This document shows positions 7,904-48,243 of a stretch of 64,000 bases of DNA, piece after piece. The stretch covers positions 69,918 through 133,917 of the forward strand of contig JAFZVZ010000006.1 in NCBI GenBank assembly GCA_017617545.1, given 5' to 3'. The translations under genes and the position numbers were made by a program. The stretch is from Lachnospiraceae bacterium (GTDB lineage Bacteria; Bacillota; Clostridia; Lachnospirales; Lachnospiraceae). The notes under the pieces are model-generated. The model made no database searches and had not been told where the DNA came from. It saw only the letters and a program-made list of their open reading frames with translations. Within the stretch, counting starts at the first letter, position 1, and each line of letters begins with the position of its first letter.

Positions 7904-9370
7904 TCACTCGCTCTTCACGCTGCCAAGCGCTTGTAACTGTTCACTGAGCACACCAATAAAATTCCCGTATTTGTCATCCAAGAAGGCTTCTCCAAGCGAC
8001 GCGGCATCAAACTCTCCCGCAAGGTACTGCCCGCTCAGATCCGCCGTGTAGCATGCATTTTCCACAGCATACATGCCGTTCTTCAGCTCCCTGTAGATGG
8101 TCCACTGCGCAAGCGTTAACTCCGGGATGAACCCTGCGGTGATCCCCGTCGTGCGCTCCGCCAGCGCCGCACGGTAGCATTCAACTGCCTCCGCCGTGCC
8201 GAAACGGGGGTTCAACAGTGCGACGATCTGCGGATCCGCCATGCACGCGCTGAGCACGCGGAGCGCCTGTTCAGTCTTCGACGAACCTCTGTATATTCCG
8301 TATGCTCCGTTGATCACCGGCTCGCCGGCATCCGCGATGATGCAGATGTCGGTGTATCCCTCCTGTTTCTCCCTCAGACCGAAGTAAATCTCGGCAACGA
8401 CATTGGCATTCATCGGAAAATGATCCACACCACCCGCTGTGTCGCCCGTATTATCCGGCTGTGATATACCGCTCACCGAGAGGTCAACCACTTTGCCCTC
8501 TCGGATATCCCGATACAACGTGTTCCAGAGATTGAGGAGTTTCTCGTCTTCCGTCCAGAGAATTGCCTCCCCCGTCTTCGGATCGTACGGGATGCCATCA
8601 TAGCTTGCGTACCCTGCCAGCGCGGAGACTATTGTCCAACGAAGATACGGGATTGCGGGCACACCGTTCGCTTCCCCGCAGATCCGTAGTAGCTCCCCGT
8701 ACGTGCCGTCCCACACATCGAACCGCGCCGCGTCTCCGTCCTTCACACGCAGATACACGCCGTGCTCTCCGCTCTCCGGGTCATACATCCTCGGCACCAC
8801 ATAAGCCTTCCCGTTGACCCGGGAACGGCTCCACTCAAACTCACTGAACGCCTTCGCAAGCTCCGTCCCTTCCGCGGACGCAAGATACTCATCCAGCTGC
8901 AGACAGTACGTCTCCGCCATCGTTTCGGCACCGTGCTGCGTATACCAGTTGCCGGTGTTCACGATGTCGGGTTCCTGCCCTTTCGCTGCAAGTTTATTAA
9001 GCCAGGTGTCATACTCCTGATCCGTCATTACATCCATATTCACAAAGTCGATCTCGCAGTTGATCCCCTTCTCCTTCAGAAGACGGTTGATCTCCGCGCG
9101 GCCCTCCTCGGTCGGTGCGTTGAAGAAGGGAACCGCCCACACAATTCGGTTGGACAAATCCGGTCCCTCCGTGGGGGACAACGCTGAACTCGGCGTTACC
9201 GTCGCATCCGTCGCAGCTCCCGACGGAGTTATCACACCGGCCCCAGACGTCACCGTCCCCGGAATCACAGTTCCGTTTTGATCCTTGCCGCCGGAACAGC
9301 CTGTCATTCCGAGCAGAAGCAGCAGGATCAACGCCATCGCGCATATATGCATTTTCCGAAATCTCGCCAA
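7904..9370 (-). CDS. Solute-binding-like lipoprotein
   Basis: A 488-residue lipoprotein: basic start, hydrophobic core and lipobox MTGC (C25), a Val/Thr/Pro-rich tether, then a solute-binding-like domain with EINRLLKEKGINCEIDFVNM, KAYVVP, GTYGELLRI and QALRVLSACMADPQI. I chose the TTG at 9370 because AAAGGGGGTG lies five bases before it. An ATG at 9352 would still give a usable signal peptide, and one at 9406 has no ribosome binding site. It is in line with the other surface proteins, 59 bases after the CEH-motif lipoprotein gene. The ligand is unknown. Confidence 0.75.
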   Translation of the reverse strand: MARFRKMHICAMALILLLLLGMTGCSGGKDQNGTVIPGTVTSGAGVITPSGAATDATVTPSSALSPTEGPDLSNRIVWAVPFFNAPTEEGRAEINRLLKEKGINCEIDFVNMDVMTDQEYDTWLNKLAAKGQEPDIVNTGNWYTQHGAETMAETYCLQLDEYLASAEGTELAKAFSEFEWSRSRVNGKAYVVPRMYDPESGEHGVYLRVKDGDAARFDVWDGTYGELLRICGEANGVPAIPYLRWTIVSALAGYASYDGIPYDPKTGEAILWTEDEKLLNLWNTLYRDIREGKVVDLSVSGISQPDNTGDTAGGVDHFPMNANVVAEIYFGLREKQEGYTDICIIADAGEPVINGAYGIYRGSSKTEQALRVLSACMADPQIVALLNPRFGTAEAVECYRAALAERTTGITAGFIPELTLAQWTIYRELKNGMYAVENACYTADLSGQYLAGEFDAASLGEAFLDDKYGNFIGVLSEQLQALGSVKSE

Positions 9371-9429
9371 GATAACACCCCCTTTTATAATCCGCACGCC
9401 GGTCACTCCCTTTCGTGGTCACCGTTTCG

Positions 9430-10700: not shown

Positions 10701-12206
10701 TTATTCCCTGTTACTGAACCATGTCTCCAGCTGTTCGTTCAGCACGTCAAATATGTCCCCGTAGTCTTTCGGGCTGCTGAAATAGTTTTCCAGGTACTCC
10801 GGATAACTCGTGTTCACCCTGAAAGTCCCGTTGATCTCCCACGACATTTTACTGCACAGATCGGAAAGCTCATCGCCGTACTTCCGCAGCACGTCATATT
10901 GATCCGTCGATATATCGGGAAAAAACCCTGTTGTATATCGCGTCGTCAGCGAGTTCATATATGCCGTTTTCGCCGTCCATCGCTCCGCATCCACTTTCTC
11001 TTTCCAGCACAGGAGCGAAGCAATCTCGGGATCCGAATAACATGCCGCAAGAACCTTCAGCGCAAGTTCTTTCTGATTTGAAGAAGCAGATACTCCGTAC
11101 GCACTGCCGATATTGGTATTGCAGGGATCAGGCACCCAGATGACCTTCGTATACCCTTCCGGTAATTCCGCTTCCTCGCCTGTGATATAGACAAGCGTAT
11201 CTTCCGACAATTCCATTGATTCTTCATACCCCATCATATTCCAGAGGCCGTTTTGATAATCCAGGAATATCGTCTGCAGCAGCTCTTTCGTTTCATTTTG
11301 ATCCGTCAACACCTCCACCCTCTGCGTCTTAAGATTGTACGAAGCATTATACAAATTCTGATATCCCATAAATGCCATGAGAAGGGATTTCGTAAAACCT
11401 CTCGTCGCGATCACCCGGGGCGAATCCGGATCTGCGCTGCACAGCGCTCGAAGGGATTCGTACGTGCCGTCAAAAGATGCGCTGAATTCCTCCAGATATC
11501 GGTCATTGACATACATATACCACTCGAACGACCCAAAGTAGCGATACGGAACCGTATAGTATTTCCCGTGGAGTTCGGTCTTGTCCCATTCCACTTCCGC
11601 AAACGAGTCCCACAACGCCTTCCCCTCTTCCGTTTCCAGATAGTCGTTCAACGGAAGCATCTCCGCTTCCTCAAATGCGGCAGCATCGATCATTCCGTGT
11701 TCCCAGGCGCCCGCAGAGATAATGTCCGGCTCTGTTCCCTTCTTTTTCATCTTGTTCAGCCAATCCCAGTAGTCTTTACCGGGATCATTGACTTCGACGA
11801 ACTCGATACGACAATTGAGTCCCTTTTTGTCCAGCATCTCCTGGATCTGAACCCGTGCTTCTTCCGGAATCCACGATGTGATCAAAACCGCCCAAACGAT
11901 ACGCGAATCACTTTCATTGATTGGTCGTAGCGTCGGAGTCGGACTTGCCGTAACCGTCGGTTGTGCCGGTTCCGTCGGTGTCACCGTAACTTCTCTTGTC
12001 GGCGTCACTGTCGTCTCAGTGTTGTCCGCGGGAGTTTCCTTCCTGCCCGGTCTCTGCAGGTACACCGCAATCGAGATGCCGACGATCACAACCATCATGA
12101 AAACAAGGACCACGTTCAGTATCCGGTTGTTTCTCCTGAGCCGCTCCAACTCGTATTGTTCCGCTCTCTCTTTCACTCTCTCAAAAACTTTATCAGGATC
12201 TCTCAT
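10701..12206 (-). CDS. One-pass membrane protein with solute-binding-like outer domain, putative sigma regulator
   Basis: A 501-residue protein: charged cytosolic segment 1-27, membrane span about 28-50, a Thr/Pro linker to about 95, then an outer domain of the same solute-binding-like family as its neighbours (EEARVQIQEMLDKKGLNCRI, YYTVPY, FDGTYESLRAL, KELALKVLAACYSDPEI). Its ATG lies inside the end of the sigma factor gene (14-base overlap), the usual position of an anti-sigma gene. The cytosolic start MRDPDKVFERVKERAEQYEL resembles those of the partners at 12964-14349 and 46326-47702. No zinc anti-sigma motif is present. The role as sigma regulator is inferred from position and topology. 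Confidence 0.75.
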   Translation of the reverse strand: MRDPDKVFERVKERAEQYELERLRRNNRILNVVLVFMMVVIVGISIAVYLQRPGRKETPADNTETTVTPTREVTVTPTEPAQPTVTASPTPTLRPINESDSRIVWAVLITSWIPEEARVQIQEMLDKKGLNCRIEFVEVNDPGKDYWDWLNKMKKKGTEPDIISAGAWEHGMIDAAAFEEAEMLPLNDYLETEEGKALWDSFAEVEWDKTELHGKYYTVPYRYFGSFEWYMYVNDRYLEEFSASFDGTYESLRALCSADPDSPRVIATRGFTKSLLMAFMGYQNLYNASYNLKTQRVEVLTDQNETKELLQTIFLDYQNGLWNMMGYEESMELSEDTLVYITGEEAELPEGYTKVIWVPDPCNTNIGSAYGVSASSNQKELALKVLAACYSDPEIASLLCWKEKVDAERWTAKTAYMNSLTTRYTTGFFPDISTDQYDVLRKYGDELSDLCSKMSWEINGTFRVNTSYPEYLENYFSSPKDYGDIFDVLNEQLETWFSNRE

Positions 12207-12750
12207 GACGATATCCCTCCTTCTTCAACTCCTGCCTCAGTGCCGCTTTCGCGCGCTTCAGCAGGCCGTTGACACTGTGCTTCGACTTGTTCATCACCGT
12301 ACCGATCTCCTCCGCGGACATCTCCTCAAAATACTTTAGCAGCAACACCTGTCGGTGATCCTCCGTGAGACGCTGCATCGCCGAACGCAGCATTCCCGCT
12401 TCCTCCTCCCGGATCAGCTCCGAGAGATTTCCCTCTCCCGATTGCATATACCCGGACATATCCTCCGGCGTGAACAGGATTTCCCGCCTGCTCTTCCGAA
12501 GATGCTTCAACGTGACATTTCTCCCGACGCGGTACAGCCATGTCTTGAACTCCGCCTTCGGCGTGTACTTCGGCCGTTTCACCGCCAGCGTGTAAAATGT
12601 CTCCTCCGCCATATCCTCCGCATCATGCATATTATTCAGATACCGGTTGAGATACAGAACCAGACCACGGTAGTATTCTTCCGTGACTTCCTTCAATCCG
12701 TTCCAGTCTCCGCCCAGAAATCGCCTGTAACCGTCCGCTCCGTCAGCCAT
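12193..12750 (-). CDS. ECF-type RNA polymerase sigma factor
   Basis: A 185-residue sigma-70 family protein of the ECF group with only regions 2 and 4. Region 2 holds DAEDMAEETF and FKTWLYRVGRNV; region 4 holds HRQVLLLKYFEEMSAEEIG and a recognition helix SKHSVNGLLKRAK. I chose the ATG at 12750 (GGAGGTG six bases before) because it aligns with the N-termini of the two paralogues (a GA..YRRFL.GD start); an ATG at 12768 is less likely. It heads an eight-gene run on the minus strand. Such factors usually control their own operon. Confidence 0.93.
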   Translation of the reverse strand: MADGADGYRRFLGGDWNGLKEVTEEYYRGLVLYLNRYLNNMHDAEDMAEETFYTLAVKRPKYTPKAEFKTWLYRVGRNVTLKHLRKSRREILFTPEDMSGYMQSGEGNLSELIREEEAGMLRSAMQRLTEDHRQVLLLKYFEEMSAEEIGTVMNKSKHSVNGLLKRAKAALRQELKKEGYRHERS

Positions 12751-12885
12751 CCGTATCACCTCCCGCATCGTTTTAGGGAAACACCGACCCGATCGGCGTC
12801 TCTTACACCCTTCTACTCATTAATACCATATTCTTCGGAAAATAGCCGCGTTTTTTTCAGTTTTCTCATTTTCCGCGAGATCAAC

Positions 12886-12963: not shown

Positions 12964-14349
12964 TTACTTTCCCTCGTATGTTCCGATGAAGATCGGAAGT
13001 CCGTCGGAGTCCAGGATCATGTAGACAAACGGTCGGTCGAGCGTTACATAGTACTCCTTCACTATGCCCCTATAACCCACTATGACATCGGTAGCTGCCT
13101 CCGCCTGCGTTCCCTTCTCGTCCACCTTGATATGTGTCTTGTGGGATACGCTGTCTACCCAAACGTCCGCCCCCGTCATAAGCCTGTGGAAATCGGCTTT
13201 CCCCCCGTCAAACGCATCCGTCATTCCGAGGTTCTTCAGGATGTCATTGAGATTGAGGGAGTACTCCTGCTCGTATTTCGGCATGGCGATATGGACCTTA
13301 TCCAGAGACCGGGGGCTGCTATTGCGCAATCCGTGAACAAACTGCGGTGTCAGCGAGGTCAGAAGTTCATGTAACGTCACGCCCTCCCTCGGAAGCAGTG
13401 CCATGAAGGTGAACTCAAAGCCCTTGTATTTCTTGGAAAAACCAATGGCGAGATCATTTTCCATGTACCCGTACTCCTGCACGGCGTACATCATGTCAAC
13501 CTTCTCGGTCGTTCCGTCCGATCTCGTGAACGTGCATCCTTTTTTGGTGTCCGCCTCGTCGAACTCGTCCTCCCACGCGGCATCCAGCGCGATCGCGTTC
13601 ATCAGGACCATCGCCGTGTTCGCCGGCAGACTGTCGATGAGCTCGTCGATCATGTCCATCGTCTTCGCCTTCACCCACGCGTTGATATCCGCCACGGTAC
13701 TGTCGTCCATCGGCGTCGAGTAGACGGCTGCGCGGTAATACTGCGCGCAGATGTCCAGAAATTCCTTCGGTACGCCCGACTCCATTGCATCATAAATCCA
13801 GAGGGAGTCCGCGTTGGAAAATGTGGTCGCGCCGTTGCCGCCCTTCGTCAGATCCGCGATCCATGCGGCCAGGTAAGCGTTGCGCTCCTCTGCCGTCAGC
13901 CCGAGCAGTTCGTCGAGCTGCGCGAGCGTCTCTCCCTCGGCTCCGTTAGCAAGCATGCTGAGCGCCACGTAGATGGAAAACGGGGATATCATCCGCGTCT
14001 TGCCCTCCGGCAGCTGCGCGAACAGTTTGTACGCAAACTCCTCGTAGGCCATTCTCATGTCGACGCTCATCGTCTTCGTGGTCGGCGCCGATCCGGACGA
14101 TCCCGCAGTCAGATCCTTCGCCGTCAGGGTTTCGAGCCGTTTCTCAGGGGTATCCTTACCGGTGTCCGTACCGGAATTATTGCGGAGCAGCCCCAACTTC
14201 CAGATTCCTACGCCAAGCAGCGCCACAAGGCACGCGGCACACACCGGGATGAGAACCTTCATCCTCGCCGCACGCTTTCTTTTCTTCTCTGTTGTATACT
14301 GTTCTCTTCGTTCAAACAGATCATTGATCATCTCATCCGAGCTCTTCAT
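12964..14349 (-). CDS. Membrane-anchored serpin paired with an ECF sigma factor
   Basis: A 461-residue protein: cytosolic segment 1-30 (MKSSDEMINDLFERREQYTT), membrane span about 31-53, a polar linker, and a full serpin domain (about 98-461) with SPFSIYVALSML, NAWVKAKTMDMIDELID and a reactive-loop hinge EKGTQAEAAT. Counting from the hinge places P1 at Arg427 (GYR-G), which predicts a trypsin-like target, and DRPFVYMI follows as in inhibitory serpins. The start at 14349 lies inside the sigma gene (17-base overlap). Serpins inhibit serine or cysteine proteases by trapping them as their loop inserts into a sheet. Position and topology suggest that this one may act as a protease-sensing sigma regulator; that part is inference. 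Confidence 0.88.
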   Translation of the reverse strand: MKSSDEMINDLFERREQYTTEKKRKRAARMKVLIPVCAACLVALLGVGIWKLGLLRNNSGTDTGKDTPEKRLETLTAKDLTAGSSGSAPTTKTMSVDMRMAYEEFAYKLFAQLPEGKTRMISPFSIYVALSMLANGAEGETLAQLDELLGLTAEERNAYLAAWIADLTKGGNGATTFSNADSLWIYDAMESGVPKEFLDICAQYYRAAVYSTPMDDSTVADINAWVKAKTMDMIDELIDSLPANTAMVLMNAIALDAAWEDEFDEADTKKGCTFTRSDGTTEKVDMMYAVQEYGYMENDLAIGFSKKYKGFEFTFMALLPREGVTLHELLTSLTPQFVHGLRNSSPRSLDKVHIAMPKYEQEYSLNLNDILKNLGMTDAFDGGKADFHRLMTGADVWVDSVSHKTHIKVDEKGTQAEAATDVIVGYRGIVKEYYVTLDRPFVYMILDSDGLPIFIGTYEGK

Positions 14350-14893
14350 AGGTGAAACCCTCCTTTTCCAACTCACTCTTCAGGGATTGTTTCGCGCGAT
14401 AGAGAAGATTTTTCGTCTGTCGGTCGCTCTTTCGAAGGATCTGCGCAGTCTCCCCGTTGGAAAAGCCCTCGAAATAAACAAGCCAGAGGACAGCCCGGTA
14501 ATCCGGGGCAAGTTTCCGAAGAGACCGGTGTACCGCTCTCTTTCGCTCCTCCCGAATGTACGAGTCCTCGAGGTCGCTCTCCTCCCTCCGATACGTCTCC
14601 ATATCCTCGGGAGCAGTCTGCGTCTGTTTTGATTCGCGTCGAAGCCAGTCGAACGCCATATTCCGCCCGATCGTGTAGAGCCAGGTTTTGAAGGAACTCT
14701 TCCCGGAAAATCCAGGTTTTTTCGTCATCAACCGGAAGAATGTATCCTCCGTCAGATCCTCCGCGGTGTGCAGGTTGTCCACGTACCCGTTCAGATACAG
14801 GATCAGACCGTCCTTGTACTCCCGTACGATATCCGCAATTCCCTCATCATCGCCCTCCAGATAACGGCGGTAGCTACTTGCACCGTTGTCCAT
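14333..14893 (-). CDS. ECF-type RNA polymerase sigma factor (serpin partner)
   Basis: A 186-residue ECF sigma factor. Region 2 has TAEDLTEDTFFRLM and FKTWLYTIGRNMAFDWLR; region 4 has DYRAVLWLVYFEGFSNGETA and SDRQTKNLLYRAK. The N-terminus MDNGASSYRRYLEGD is almost identical to that of the sigma at 47689-48243. GAGGAG precedes the ATG. The gene end overlaps the serpin gene start, so the two are translationally coupled. A possible ECF-type promoter lies 52-79 bases upstream (14945-14972). Confidence 0.93.
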   Translation of the reverse strand: MDNGASSYRRYLEGDDEGIADIVREYKDGLILYLNGYVDNLHTAEDLTEDTFFRLMTKKPGFSGKSSFKTWLYTIGRNMAFDWLRRESKQTQTAPEDMETYRREESDLEDSYIREERKRAVHRSLRKLAPDYRAVLWLVYFEGFSNGETAQILRKSDRQTKNLLYRAKQSLKSELEKEGFTYEELG

Positions 14894-14944
14894 GGGAACT
14901 CCTCACTGTGTTTTGTTTCTCTATCGCAGTGTCCTTTCACCTAT

Positions 14945-14972
14945 TAGACGGATGAAACTCCGAAAAGTCTCA
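14945..14972 (-). promoter_or_regulatory. Candidate ECF-type autoregulatory promoter of the serpin sigma gene
   Basis: On the minus strand TGAGAC (14967-14972), 16 bases, then CGTCTA (14945-14950). This resembles the TGAAAC-N16-CGTA/C pattern of Bacillus ECF factors. The two boxes also sit in the arms of a nine-pair hairpin (14947-14955 with 14970-14978), which might instead end the upstream transcript. Confidence 0.35.
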
Positions 14973-15038: not shown

Positions 15039-16472
15039 TCATTTTCCGTTCAACCAGTCCCGAACCTCCTCATTGACAGTCTCACAAACTCCGGAATACC
15101 GCGCAACGCACTTTTTGAATGTTTCCCACTCCGTTTCGATATTCCACCGGGACTGACCCTGCCGTGCGAACATTCCGCCGATCAGTCGGGTATACGCCTG
15201 GTCCGGACTCATGCGATCCTCATCCGTCGGATCATAGAGCGCGGCATACTCCTTTTCCGTCCTTAGCAGGAGGATGCCCGACAGATCGCTCTTCGGCAGC
15301 ACGGAAAGGAGTTCTTTACGCCGCACGACGGTTTCCTTCTGAAGGCCGGGGTACAACAGTCCGAGGATTTCCGGATCCGTAGAGCACAGGGAAAGAATCT
15401 CGAATGCCAGATCCTTCTGCCCGGAAGCCGTTGAAATACCGTATCGGCAGTTTACGTTGAACGCATCGATATAGCGGCCGAGGAAATATTCCCGATACCC
15501 TTCCCGGGGCAATCGTACGTTCCGGTGGATATAGGCCAGCACATCCCCCTCCATATCCTGCATCTCGTCCTCGAGGACCAGAATACCCGATGCCTTATCA
15601 CTGCTCAGTCTCATCAGAAGAAACGCCAATTCATCGTTCTCCGTGATGTCGACAACCGTTTTGGTGTCTTCCCGATACGGAAAATCATACAGCACCGAGT
15701 ATCCCATAAGTCCGTACACAACATCCTTATCGGCACCGCAGAGCACGATATGAAGATCGCTGTTTCCGATCGTATCGTAGATCTTCCGCAGGGAATCGTA
15801 CGTTCCGTCAAATCCGTTGAAATACTCCGCATACTCTTCCCGGACGGAGAGGAATATCCCCAACCCGACCGCATCATACAAATTGTTGTAATTCTCGTCC
15901 TCACCGGAATGACACGCCGACGTGGGAACGACATAAATATTTCCCTTGTAAGCGGCCTGCTTCCACTCATTTTCCGTAAAGAACTCACGGAGGGTTTGCC
16001 CGTCCGCCGAGTTGATCCGATCATTCAGGGGGATCATCCGTTCTTCCAGAAATGCAACTTTCCCTTTCGTATCGACCCCGTTGCCGAGACCGGAGCACAC
16101 AATGTCGAGGTGTCCGTAAGTGCCGGAGAGGTCCTTCTCGTAGATATCCATCTGTTCCCCGAGGGCCGGCGTTTCGTCAACCATCCCGGCATTCACAAAC
16201 ACGATCTGACAATCCAACCCGCGCTCGTATAAGATCCGGTTGATCTCCTTCGCCGTTTCTTCCTTGATCCCTCCGAATGCCCCCGAAAAATAATCAAACA
16301 TCCATGTGACGGTACGCGATGTCTCATGTTCGGGTTTGAACACCTCGATCTTCGGAAGCGGCTCCCGGGGTCTGGGTGTCACGGTCGTGTTATCGGTCGG
16401 CTTTTTGCCGCACCCCGCTACCATTGCACACAGAACAACGATGCCTACTGCCGCAAGAAACTTTCTTCCCAT
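15039..16472 (-). CDS. Solute-binding-like lipoprotein
   Basis: A 477-residue lipoprotein with lipobox VAGC (C21) and a short Thr/Pro tether. The solute-binding-like domain has KEINRILYERGLDCQIVFVN, NIYVVP, FNGFDGTYDSLRKIYDTIG, LMGYSVLYDFPY and DLAFEILSLCSTDPEI, so it is the fourth member of the local family. It lies upstream of the serpin sigma gene with a gap of about 145 bases. It may share that control region or be transcribed alone. Its leader carries 13-base purine-rich repeats (16494-16545). Confidence 0.75.
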   Translation of the reverse strand: MGRKFLAAVGIVVLCAMVAGCGKKPTDNTTVTPRPREPLPKIEVFKPEHETSRTVTWMFDYFSGAFGGIKEETAKEINRILYERGLDCQIVFVNAGMVDETPALGEQMDIYEKDLSGTYGHLDIVCSGLGNGVDTKGKVAFLEERMIPLNDRINSADGQTLREFFTENEWKQAAYKGNIYVVPTSACHSGEDENYNNLYDAVGLGIFLSVREEYAEYFNGFDGTYDSLRKIYDTIGNSDLHIVLCGADKDVVYGLMGYSVLYDFPYREDTKTVVDITENDELAFLLMRLSSDKASGILVLEDEMQDMEGDVLAYIHRNVRLPREGYREYFLGRYIDAFNVNCRYGISTASGQKDLAFEILSLCSTDPEILGLLYPGLQKETVVRRKELLSVLPKSDLSGILLLRTEKEYAALYDPTDEDRMSPDQAYTRLIGGMFARQGQSRWNIETEWETFKKCVARYSGVCETVNEEVRDWLNGK

Positions 16473-46325: not shown

Positions 46326-47702
46326 TCAACGGTACTTTTCATAATTCTCAACGGCGATTTCCCATGCGCCTCCTGTTGATACTCCGTTCTCTCCCACATA
46401 AAACGAAATCGAGGTTCTACTCCCGAGCCAAGTTCCTTCACTCGGCGGCTCACCGAAGTCCCACGAAAAGCTGAGAACGATTTTGCCCGTATTTCCCACT
46501 TCATAGTTTGAAAAATCAATCACGACCCTTTCGTGTCTTCCCTGAGAAATACTATCATATGGCCCGAGTTCCATCGAAGGCATCTCTTCCAGAGTAAAAA
46601 TCCGAGAGTATTTGTTTCGTGTTCCGTTGATCAGCAGCTTGTCGTCATTCAAAATACGGTACTGAAAATCATTGAGGGCACTTGAGTAAACCTGCAGATT
46701 GGGATACCCGTTTTCACCATAGGTATCATAGCTTGGTTCACCGCCGCACCTCTGGTGATACTCATACGAGTAGTCCCCGACATATACATCAACGATGAGT
46801 TTTTCACCTTTCCGAACGAAGGTCGGACACCTGTATGCAATTCTCTGCGGCATCATCGGTTTGCCGTTTCCGTCATCATCGAAACCAACGACAAGTTCTT
46901 CCGGAAGGTACTCAACCGACTCCCCCTGCCGATTCAGGTCATCTATATACTGCCTTACCTTCTCTGAGTAACCGTACAACCCGTCAACATAATTCAGACA
47001 TACATAATCCTTCTGTCCGATGTTGCTTGCATATATCGTCTGCTTTAGTTCCTTCATCCCCTCCTGCTCCGCCTGCTCCTGATCCACGAACGTCGGAACC
47101 ACGAAAAATTCGACGCTGCCGGGGTCAACAGCATCATTCACACGAACCCGTATCGTTACGTTCCATACATACGTCCATGGCTCTCCGTTGCCTTCGGCCG
47201 TATCGGTCGAGACCACCTCCACGCCATCACTCTTGGTGACAACAATCTCACAGCCGGTCATCTCCAACGTGCTGACGATCTTATACTTTTTTTCAATGAT
47301 ATCTCTGTGGTTGTACTCTCTCTCCATCTCGTTCTCACATGTCAAATACCATGTGCCCATATCCTTTCCGCCATGCGGCGGCTCCTCGCTGATCGTGGGT
47401 GTTGCAGAAGGAGTTGTGGTTCCCGCGGGGTTATCAACTGCCGGAGATGTTGTCACAGTTCCTGTGGGTCTGTCTCCGGGTTTCTTTGCACCACCCAATT
47501 TAGATGCGGCGAAAAATACCAGCCCGATCAGGACACCGCAGCTCGCAACAACCGTTGCTCTCCGGAACAGTTTTCCGGAGAAGAGGTTTGTTTTCTGCGC
47601 AGAGACCTCTTTCTTTCCTCCGACAGTCCCATTTTCCTCTTCTCTCTCAATCTCCTCCGCCCTCTGCAGGACATACTTTATGACTTCATCATGATCTCGC
47701 AT
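46326..47702 (-). CDS. One-pass membrane protein, putative sigma regulator, unknown outer domain
   Basis: A 458-residue protein: cytosolic start MRDHDEVIKYVLQRAEEIER, span about 49-68, a Pro/Thr/Gly linker to about 105, then an outer domain of about 350 residues rich in strands (CEIVVTKSDGVEVV, RVRVNDAVDPGSVEFFVV, VVIDFSNYEVGNTGKIVLSF). I recognise no family for the outer domain; parts look Ig-like. The ATG at 47702 overlaps the sigma gene by 14 bases, exactly as in the pair at 12193-12206. Role as sigma regulator is inferred from this. Confidence 0.72.
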   Translation of the reverse strand: MRDHDEVIKYVLQRAEEIEREEENGTVGGKKEVSAQKTNLFSGKLFRRATVVASCGVLIGLVFFAASKLGGAKKPGDRPTGTVTTSPAVDNPAGTTTPSATPTISEEPPHGGKDMGTWYLTCENEMEREYNHRDIIEKKYKIVSTLEMTGCEIVVTKSDGVEVVSTDTAEGNGEPWTYVWNVTIRVRVNDAVDPGSVEFFVVPTFVDQEQAEQEGMKELKQTIYASNIGQKDYVCLNYVDGLYGYSEKVRQYIDDLNRQGESVEYLPEELVVGFDDDGNGKPMMPQRIAYRCPTFVRKGEKLIVDVYVGDYSYEYHQRCGGEPSYDTYGENGYPNLQVYSSALNDFQYRILNDDKLLINGTRNKYSRIFTLEEMPSMELGPYDSISQGRHERVVIDFSNYEVGNTGKIVLSFSWDFGEPPSEGTWLGSRTSISFYVGENGVSTGGAWEIAVENYEKYR

Positions 47703-48243
47703 GGTATCCCTCTCTTTCCATCTCTTCACGCAATGCCTTCCCGGCGCGCTTCACCAGATGATTGACGCTGTATACCGATTTGCCCATCGCTGCTGCAATC
47801 TCCGCCGCCGACATATCCTCAAAATACTTGAGCCATAACACTCTGCGAAAGTCCGGTCGCAACCGCAACAGGCACTTATGCAGCGTTTTCTTTTCCTCGT
47901 CCGCAAAATAATCCCTTGCCGCTTCCTGCTCCTCCACCGACAGAAGCGCCAGTTCCTCCGGCGAAGACGTAGTGATCCTGTGGTTTTTCCTCAGATAATC
48001 GACCGTAACATTCCGCCCGATGGAGTAAAGCCACGTCTTAAAAGTGGACTTCCCCGCAAACACCGGCTTCTTCGACACCAGAACCACAAGGGTTTCCTGC
48101 GCCATATCCTCCGCATCATGGAGGTTGTTCAGCCAGGTGTTCAGATAGAGAACAAGTCCGTCATAGTAATCATACACGATCTGTGCAAAACCGTCCCTGT
48201 CACCTTCTAGGAAACGTCGGTAGCTGCTTGCGCCATTATCCAT
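47689..48243 (-). CDS. ECF-type RNA polymerase sigma factor
   Basis: A 184-residue ECF sigma factor. MDNGASSYRRFLEGD at the start, region 2 DAEDMAQETLVVLV and FKTWLYSIGRNVTVDYLR, region 4 RRVLWLKYFEDMSAAEIAAA and SVYSVNHLVKRAG. The start at 48243 follows AGAGGA eight bases away and matches the paralogues; an ATG at 48291 is rejected. The pair is followed by a terminator, so it forms a two-gene unit without surface genes. Confidence 0.93.
   Translation of the reverse strand: MDNGASSYRRFLEGDRDGFAQIVYDYYDGLVLYLNTWLNNLHDAEDMAQETLVVLVSKKPVFAGKSTFKTWLYSIGRNVTVDYLRKNHRITTSSPEELALLSVEEQEAARDYFADEEKKTLHKCLLRLRPDFRRVLWLKYFEDMSAAEIAAAMGKSVYSVNHLVKRAGKALREEMEREGYHARS

Follow-up and report, generated by a model that had tools for sequence, protein, structure and literature searches.

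The window analysed here is a stretch of 64,000 nucleotides from a Lachnospiraceae bacterium of the gut (GenBank assembly GCA_017617545.1, contig JAFZVZ010000006.1, positions 69,918 to 133,917). It contains, on the minus strand, two overlapping genes encoding a sigma factor of the extracytoplasmic function (ECF) group and a membrane-anchored serpin, which probably acts as the anti-sigma factor of its neighbour. The features of this pair, in window coordinates, are listed below; loci of the compared sets are designated by L and a number.

14333..14893, minus strand: ECF sigma factor of 186 residues, of the type called A below (SYRR group; PF04542, PF08281)
12964..14349, minus strand: membrane-anchored serpin of 461 residues, probable anti-sigma factor (PF00079, PDB match)
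14257..14349, minus strand: cytosolic segment, residues 1-31, probable sigma-binding segment (ortholog comparison)
14197..14256, minus strand: single membrane span, about residues 32-51 (hydropathy scan)
14059..14196, minus strand: extracytoplasmic linker of about 46 residues, with 7 Lys/Arg and 35% Ser/Thr/Pro
12979..14049, minus strand: serpin domain, residues 101-457 (Pfam, PDB match)
13066..13119, minus strand: reactive-centre loop, from P17 Glu411 to P1 Arg427 / P1' Gly428
14944..14972, minus strand: ECF-type promoter-like site TGAGAC-N16-CGTCTAA, 5' of the sigma gene and conserved in orthologs

The sigma factor is a short protein with regions 2 and 4 only (Pfam search: Sigma70_r2, E 3.5e-14; Sigma70_r4_2, E 3.9e-12) and thus belongs to the ECF group; it scores 102 bits against TIGR02937 (cut-off 42.9) and is 42-49% identical to four type A siblings in its own genome. 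The listing of open reading frames (ORFs) starts the serpin gene at GTG 14376 (12964-14376, 470 residues). The ATG at 14349 is preferred because a Shine-Dalgarno-like GGAGG stands immediately 5' of it and because it opens an MKSS[DE] segment common to the closest orthologs; the residues given above are renumbered from this ATG. The gene most likely spans 12964-14349 and encodes 461 residues, and with this start the sigma gene ends 17 nucleotides inside it, as the original prediction had stated. The serpin domain is complete by Pfam and PDB comparison: PF00079 is matched with 272.8 bits over profile positions 2-366 of 370 (residues 110-466 of the 470-residue ORF), and the top PDB match is tengpin (2pee, 1.3e-69). 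Hydropathy places a short N-terminal part and one span before this outer domain. The predicted one-pass protein with a complete outer serpin, encoded directly 3' of a sigma gene in the usual position of an anti-sigma factor, was thus found in both gene order and layout. No anti-sigma Pfam model matched the protein at E <=1, although the model of the class I anti-sigma domain (ASDI) itself was not run. ASDI proteins carry a four-helix ASDI at the N-terminus (PMC7406223), whereas the cytosolic part of the window protein has about 31 residues.

The genome to which the window belongs (2.73 Mb) contains seven serpins, and three of them lie directly 3' of an ECF sigma gene: the window protein (contig 41) and one serpin each on contigs 10 and 20. 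Three tandem serpins on contig 44 have lipoprotein-type starts and no sigma gene upstream. There are 24 region-4 matches genome-wide, at least four of which are response regulators as judged by eye, and it is estimated that with this number a sigma gene would precede about 1% of genes at most; the linkage of three serpins out of seven is therefore not a matter of chance. The sigma genes of this genome include two distant groups. Type A comprises the window sigma factor and its four siblings, each followed by an overlapping one-pass partner (by eye), the outer parts of which differ. Type B sigma factors are only about one quarter identical to the window sigma factor, and their partners start with a segment like M-K-x-E-x-L-x-D-A-I-x-x-I-D-[DE]-x-L. 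On contig 10, the sigma-linked serpin is followed by a second anchored serpin.

The pairing is conserved in relatives, across both genus and family. In the genus, 21 of 22 genomes have serpins (88 matches in total), and at least 23 of these matches, distributed over 12 genomes, lie directly 3' of a sigma gene, 8 of type A and 15 of type B. Serpins were found in 105 of 299 genomes of the family sample, nearly all of different genera; in 100 regions outside the genus, taken from the upper part of the serpin match list, 14 of 111 serpin ORFs are directly 3' of a sigma gene (12 at the first distance limit). A set of named genomes, consisting of the best 80 of 563 relatives and overlapping the genus and family sets, gave 5 of 106; its records come mostly from uncultured Lachnospiraceae, Oscillospiraceae and further Clostridia, often of ruminant gut origin. 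All sets together contain 39 sigma-serpin pairs after removal of duplicates. In these counts, ORFs shorter than 600 nt were excluded, entries identical over the last 200 residues were counted once, and L083, L202 and L223 are linked only under a wider distance limit; several loci recur across sets (L226 is L114, L263 is L172, L237 is L156, L243 is L138, L227 is L107, L229 is L081). The linked counts are lower limits because some serpins sit at contig ends. None of the 30 best-scoring loci at class level, a set biased to the highest scores, is sigma-linked. This result, together with the tandem serpins of contig 44, rules out that serpins as such are linked to sigma genes. Chance neighbourhood was ruled out by the strand and side bias of sigma genes around the serpins. 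Within 2.6 kb of a serpin in the named set, 23 sigma genes lie upstream and 6 downstream on the same strand, versus none on the upstream side and one on the downstream side on the opposite strand. This count covers 106 serpin ORFs in 80 loci with flanks of up to 4 kb, similar numbers of bases being available on both sides, and its 23 upstream cases include the L257 sigma gene, counted for two serpins, and the near-copies L270/L273 and L236/L237.

Other arrangements were noticed around these pairs. Two genus genomes have a second anchored serpin behind the sigma-linked serpin (L009, 8387-9955; L103, 4267-5709), in both cases without the type B cytosolic motif by eye. Sigma genes are also found just 3' of some genus serpins (L226, 2342-2941; L229, 5649-6209; L280, 3650-4138), and a further sigma/partner pair is located 3' of the serpin in L114, L081 and L099. 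In L121 and L131, the sigma-linked anchored serpin has a long C-terminal extension that resembles leucine-rich repeats by eye.

The 36 linked serpins included in a tree of 92 rows do not form one clade. A single origin was rejected by the approximately unbiased (AU) test with p 5.9e-6, the grouping having been tested after a first tree had been inspected, and the branches with strong support require at least 13 changes, counting both gains and losses. The tree was built without L091, L100, L110 and the secreted serpin of L184, and 34 of the unlinked family serpins were drawn at random for it. The window protein belongs to a supported clade of 11 rows, the smallest that surrounds it, in which 6 rows are linked and 5 are not. 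This clade is nested in a larger one, also supported, that has 13 unlinked rows; in the first tree, lipoprotein serpins of the genus occupy this place. Serpins of several lineages have joined sigma genes, more than once and with sigma factors of two distant groups.

Inhibitory serpins have a hinge with Gly at P15, Thr at P14 and small inward residues at P12, P10 and P8. The window loop reads EKGTQAEAATDVIVGYR followed by G, and the count from P17 confirms the canonical hinge GTQAEAAT (G at P15, T at P14, A at P12, A at P10, T at P8) and the P1 arginine at 427 that had been predicted. Judged by these residues, it is an inhibitory-type loop. An aromatic-[RK]-[GS] centre at P2-P1-P1' occurs in 10 of the 13 loops that could be read in the window clade and among its nearest neighbours, although four of the ten are close copies; the loops without a basic-P1 centre in or beside the clade are those of L066, L075 and L088. 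Because this centre recurs, trypsin-like targets are likely in the window clade, but not in type B. The proposed trypsin-like specificity is thus likely for the clade only, and strict trypsin specificity of the whole group is ruled out by L066, L075, L088 and the type B loops. The loop pattern missed 35 of 276 loops; of six such row ends that were inspected, those of L091 and L100 stop before the loop.

The cytosolic segments were compared with those of partners that have other outer domains. Two N-terminal profile models, each made from four non-serpin partners, were searched against 1909 ORFs of the genus and family loci, some genes occurring twice since loci overlap. The type A model gave 14 rows at >=6 bits, 13 of them right after a sigma gene and 6 of them serpins; the serpin anchors of L172, L075, L091 and L100 reach E of about 1e-6. 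With the type B model, 34 rows were obtained, 30 right after a sigma gene; among them are 19 serpins, of which 17 follow a sigma gene and two, L072 and the third gene of L184, both anchored, do not follow one directly. No lipoprotein serpin among the 1909 ORFs reached 6 bits. By this comparison, sigma-partner segments have been joined to serpins, although it is a weak test for the window protein itself. Since many serpin N-termini resemble the non-serpin partners of sibling sigma factors, they are probably anti-sigma segments.

Further evidence comes from five orthologs in the window clade that have no sigma gene (L073, L081, L097, L099 and L107), in the genomes of which no match to the window promoter was found. 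The sigma-linked members (window, L066, L080, L087 and L114) share 17-25, on average 21, of the 31 residues of the N-terminal segment, with serpin identities of 62-72%. The sigma-less serpins are still 59-75% identical to the linked ones (L099 and L107 are 96% identical to each other), whereas their cytosolic segment is down to 9 residues in L081 and L107; in L073 and L099, an average of 15 and 14, respectively, of its 31 residues agree with those of the linked members, hydrophobic and aromatic positions being changed. Orthologs without the sigma gene thus keep the serpin, and four of the five have a shortened or altered segment; the notion that this segment always decays was dropped, since L097 largely keeps it. 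The change of the segment in sigma-less orthologs, together with the segments shared with other partners, supports an anti-sigma role, and we consider it likely that the window membrane serpin is an anti-sigma factor.

A second gene order separates the two presumed functions. In the family set, one gene lies between sigma gene and serpin in L138, L141, L147, L154, L156, L168, L169, L174 and L213, and two genes in L201 and before the second serpin of L168; L158 was excluded because its reading frame is unclear. By eye, a span lies close to the start of the in-between protein, and this start is sigma-partner-like in all but L168. In the named set, 14 loci have a sigma gene 551-903 bp upstream of the serpin, two of these loci (L237, L243) being in the family set as well; in the 13 for which the in-between gene could be read (all but L284), its start is again sigma-partner-like by eye. 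The separate serpin of these split operons is mostly a lipoprotein, and the anti-sigma-like protein bears another outer part. The fused L270 and the split L156 belong to one group, their sigma factors being identical at 119 of 179 positions and their anchor segments at 25 of 47; a TAAGGA ... GTATAA promoter is common to 9 of 15 upstream stretches, those of the L270/L156 group. The serpin looks like an output in these operons because an anti-sigma-like gene separates it from the sigma gene. This suggests that serpin production recurs as an apparent output of ECF control, and that fusion would put this output on the anti-sigma factor. Two details of such operons are added here. In L184 (2236-5961), the sigma gene is followed by a secreted serpin and then by an anchored serpin with a sigma-partner-like start, an order that is possibly intermediate between split and fused forms. 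A domain with the pattern FSFSLTW..GISSYDS.TG.L.KTTDATHPEDY, possibly an unknown sensing domain, recurs in split operons (L258, L291, L296; L156, L236, L260, L286, L287), where it either forms part of the anti-sigma-like protein or has a gene to itself.

ECF sigma factors are commonly, though not universally, autoregulated from a promoter of their own type. TGAGAC-N16-CGTCTAA, followed by a GGTGAAA stretch, is found 5' of the five closest orthologous sigma genes. With at most one mismatch, the pattern has 5 matches in the 22 genomes of the genus, each before this operon (control 0), and none in 17 of these genomes. The type B pattern, with at most two mismatches, has 14 matches, 12 of which precede type B sigma-serpin operons, versus 7 in the reversed control. 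It is suggested by these conserved candidate promoters that the sigma-serpin operon is autoregulated. A wider regulon was not found: with fewer than three mismatches, the window pattern has no second site in its own genome, and at up to three it has 25 matches versus 41 in the reversed control. The window serpin is thus the only output found for its sigma factor, and not merely a sensor.

The window contains further pairs of this kind. Immediately beside the serpin gene are the following two genes.

12193..12768, minus strand: sibling type A ECF sigma factor gene (L015; Pfam)
10701..12206, minus strand: overlapping one-pass partner of this sigma factor, with a different outer domain

The cytosolic N-terminus of the 10701-12206 partner is of the kind found on the type A serpin anchors of relatives. 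Its outer domain is about 30% identical to the lipoprotein-like products of 7904-9406 and 15039-16472 (minus strand), and none of these three copies has a Pfam match above the cut-off; as judged by these alignments, the domain exists, like the serpins, in a free form and as a sigma partner. A third type A sigma/partner pair, with yet another outer part, lies at about 46326-48243 on the minus strand (L018).

The reading that we favour, with some reserve, is that of an autoregulated ECF operon in which an inhibitory serpin serves as anti-sigma factor, so that protease engagement would free the sigma factor and replenish the inhibitor. In the resting cell, the sigma factor would be bound and silenced by the N-terminal segment that the membrane serpin exposes to the cytosol. 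Outside the cell, the serpin would inhibit attacking proteases, here probably Arg/Lys-specific ones, each molecule being used once. Once the outer domain is engaged or lost, the membrane-proximal linker would lie open to a first cut, after which a site-2 protease (one M50 protease of this type is encoded in the genome) would cut the span. The freed sigma factor would transcribe its own operon and thereby produce more serpin. A single molecule would serve as sensor, as inhibitor and as the product under regulation, and the supply of the inhibitor would therefore follow its consumption. It had been supposed that the change of shape of the cut serpin reports the attack. The linkers between membrane and serpin vary from 29 to 161 residues, which makes direct mechanical transmission doubtful, and a change of shape relayed straight through them was judged unlikely. 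It is more plausible that the outer domain is shed and that intramembrane proteolysis follows.

A more specific version of this scheme is built on tengpin, the closest solved serpin (PDB 2pee, 2vh4), whose N-terminal tail stabilises the native state (PMC8233489, PMC6718151). The tengpin tail AANLMDRI aligns with ATDLMANI of the fused L270 and with AKDLMKGI of the lipoprotein serpin L260; the comparable stretch of the window protein, AKDLTAGS, lies outside its tengpin alignment, and a tail is not confidently recognisable there. In L270, the tengpin-like tail adjoins the membrane, which offers a concrete way in which loop insertion could expose the linker. According to this version, the membrane serpin would combine the roles of anti-sigma factor and protease sensor and would itself be the one product that its sigma factor controls. 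Where a tengpin-like tail is present, as is clear in L270, this stabilising tail would adjoin the membrane tether; on attack, loop insertion would free the tail, the linker would be cut and the sigma factor let out, each loss calling for a replacement. Such a self-replenishing design would have arisen repeatedly in gut and rumen Clostridia, alongside the three-gene operons. We put this version forward tentatively, as a possibility. As a general mark of linked serpins, the tail is ruled out, since a crude count of the motif gave 5 of 38 sigma-linked serpins versus 58 of 193 others.

The findings brought together in this and the next paragraph weigh against the favoured scheme, and some of them can be explained in another way. 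With the type A model, the window protein (present twice) reaches only 6.0 bits (E 1.4), a weak match; its four closest sigma-linked orthologs stay below 6 bits, and both models together recover 21 of 37 linked serpins and miss 16. When the segment is compared with that of the window protein alone, the sigma-less L073 (18/31) and L099 (17/31) share no less than the linked L080 (17/31). Sigma-less L097 retains 13-18 of 25 residues in common with the linked members (16/25 with the window protein), and the anchored serpins of L072 and, more weakly, L070 have a seemingly intact N-terminus without an adjacent sigma gene. The weak match of the window N-terminus, and the fact that L073, L097 and L099 keep about half or more of the segment, could mean that the genes are merely co-transcribed and that the cytosolic end of the serpin never contacts the sigma factor. 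However, the same segment is found on unrelated outer domains after sibling sigma genes, and two sigma-less orthologs lost the segment while keeping the serpin, which makes mere co-transcription improbable. It is also conceivable that the anti-sigma factor carries its serpin domain as a passive part without inhibitory activity, either for sensing or as a structural element. The type B hinge is indeed less canonical, since P14 is Val in many members and P9 is often bulky, and type B loops mostly have no basic P1. We nevertheless give little credence to a non-inhibitory domain in view of the window hinge (G-T at P15-P14, Ala at P12 and P10, Thr at P8), the basic P1 that recurs in its clade, and tengpin as the top PDB match.

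As for the signal and the regulon, the type A operons of L075, L091 and L100 do not have the window pattern, and 3 of 15 type B operons of the genus do not have the type B pattern. Both patterns were derived from the same operons on which they were counted, and therefore argue for no more than a conserved autoregulation and the lack of a second strict target; real regulons of ECF sigma factors may allow a larger number of mismatches. The linker of L270 contains no Lys/Arg. Another explanation keeps the membrane serpin as anti-sigma factor but makes the serpin only an output, the signal being envelope damage or cutting of the linker by any protease. It is consistent with the split operons, where a separate, mostly lipoprotein serpin is accompanied by an anti-sigma-like protein with another outer part, and with the orthologs that retain the serpin without a sigma gene, since inhibition must then be useful without signalling. 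However, the serpin was joined to sigma-partner segments more than once, which would be needless for a pure output, and we regard this explanation as rather unlikely, though one to be taken seriously. In the favoured scheme, the signal would be the protease itself and would run from the serpin to the sigma factor.

Serpins are single-use inhibitors, and a cell would therefore profit from tracking the rate at which they are consumed. Because many Clostridia of gut and rumen have the arrangement, it could represent a response that defends them against proteases where host and microbes meet. Two questions become testable through it, namely what purpose these bacterial serpins have, and what activates the large set of clostridial ECF sigma factors.

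The arrangement is real and conserved, and we found no description of it. As the original prediction had supposed, no link between a serpin and an ECF sigma or anti-sigma factor was found in literature titles among the matches listed, most subscription journals lying outside the scope of the search. Among the systems with which it can be compared, SigI is not of the ECF group studied here, and the outer domain of RsiV is not a serpin. Tengpin is inhibitory (PMC6718151), and the available part of the source mentions no sigma partner for it. The cellulosomal serpins of Clostridium thermocellum are extracellular and were suggested to guard surface proteins from proteases; they differ in being associated with the cellulosome, and no ECF partner is mentioned in the part of the source available (PMC12484212). 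The serpin of Bifidobacterium breve is induced by an external protease (papain) (cited in PMC8012564), although by a two-component system and not an ECF sigma factor, and the serpin is not described as a regulator in the excerpt available. A likeness is also offered by SigI/RsgI of C. thermocellum, sigma factors with membrane anti-sigma partners that were proposed to sense extracellular polysaccharides (PMC3990059). By analogy, the nearest precedent is RsiV of Bacillus subtilis, an anti-sigma factor that both senses and inhibits one enzyme. RsiV senses and inhibits lysozyme and is cut by signal peptidase and then by RasP (PMC5014341); as proposed here for the serpin, it is an anti-sigma factor in the membrane and uses its outer domain to bind and inhibit the enzyme that it senses. 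It differs in that RsiV/sigma-V senses lysozyme, not a protease, and controls lysozyme-resistance genes. If the favoured scheme is true, an anti-sigma factor made of a serpin would solve the tracking of consumption in one molecule and would be the protease counterpart of RsiV.

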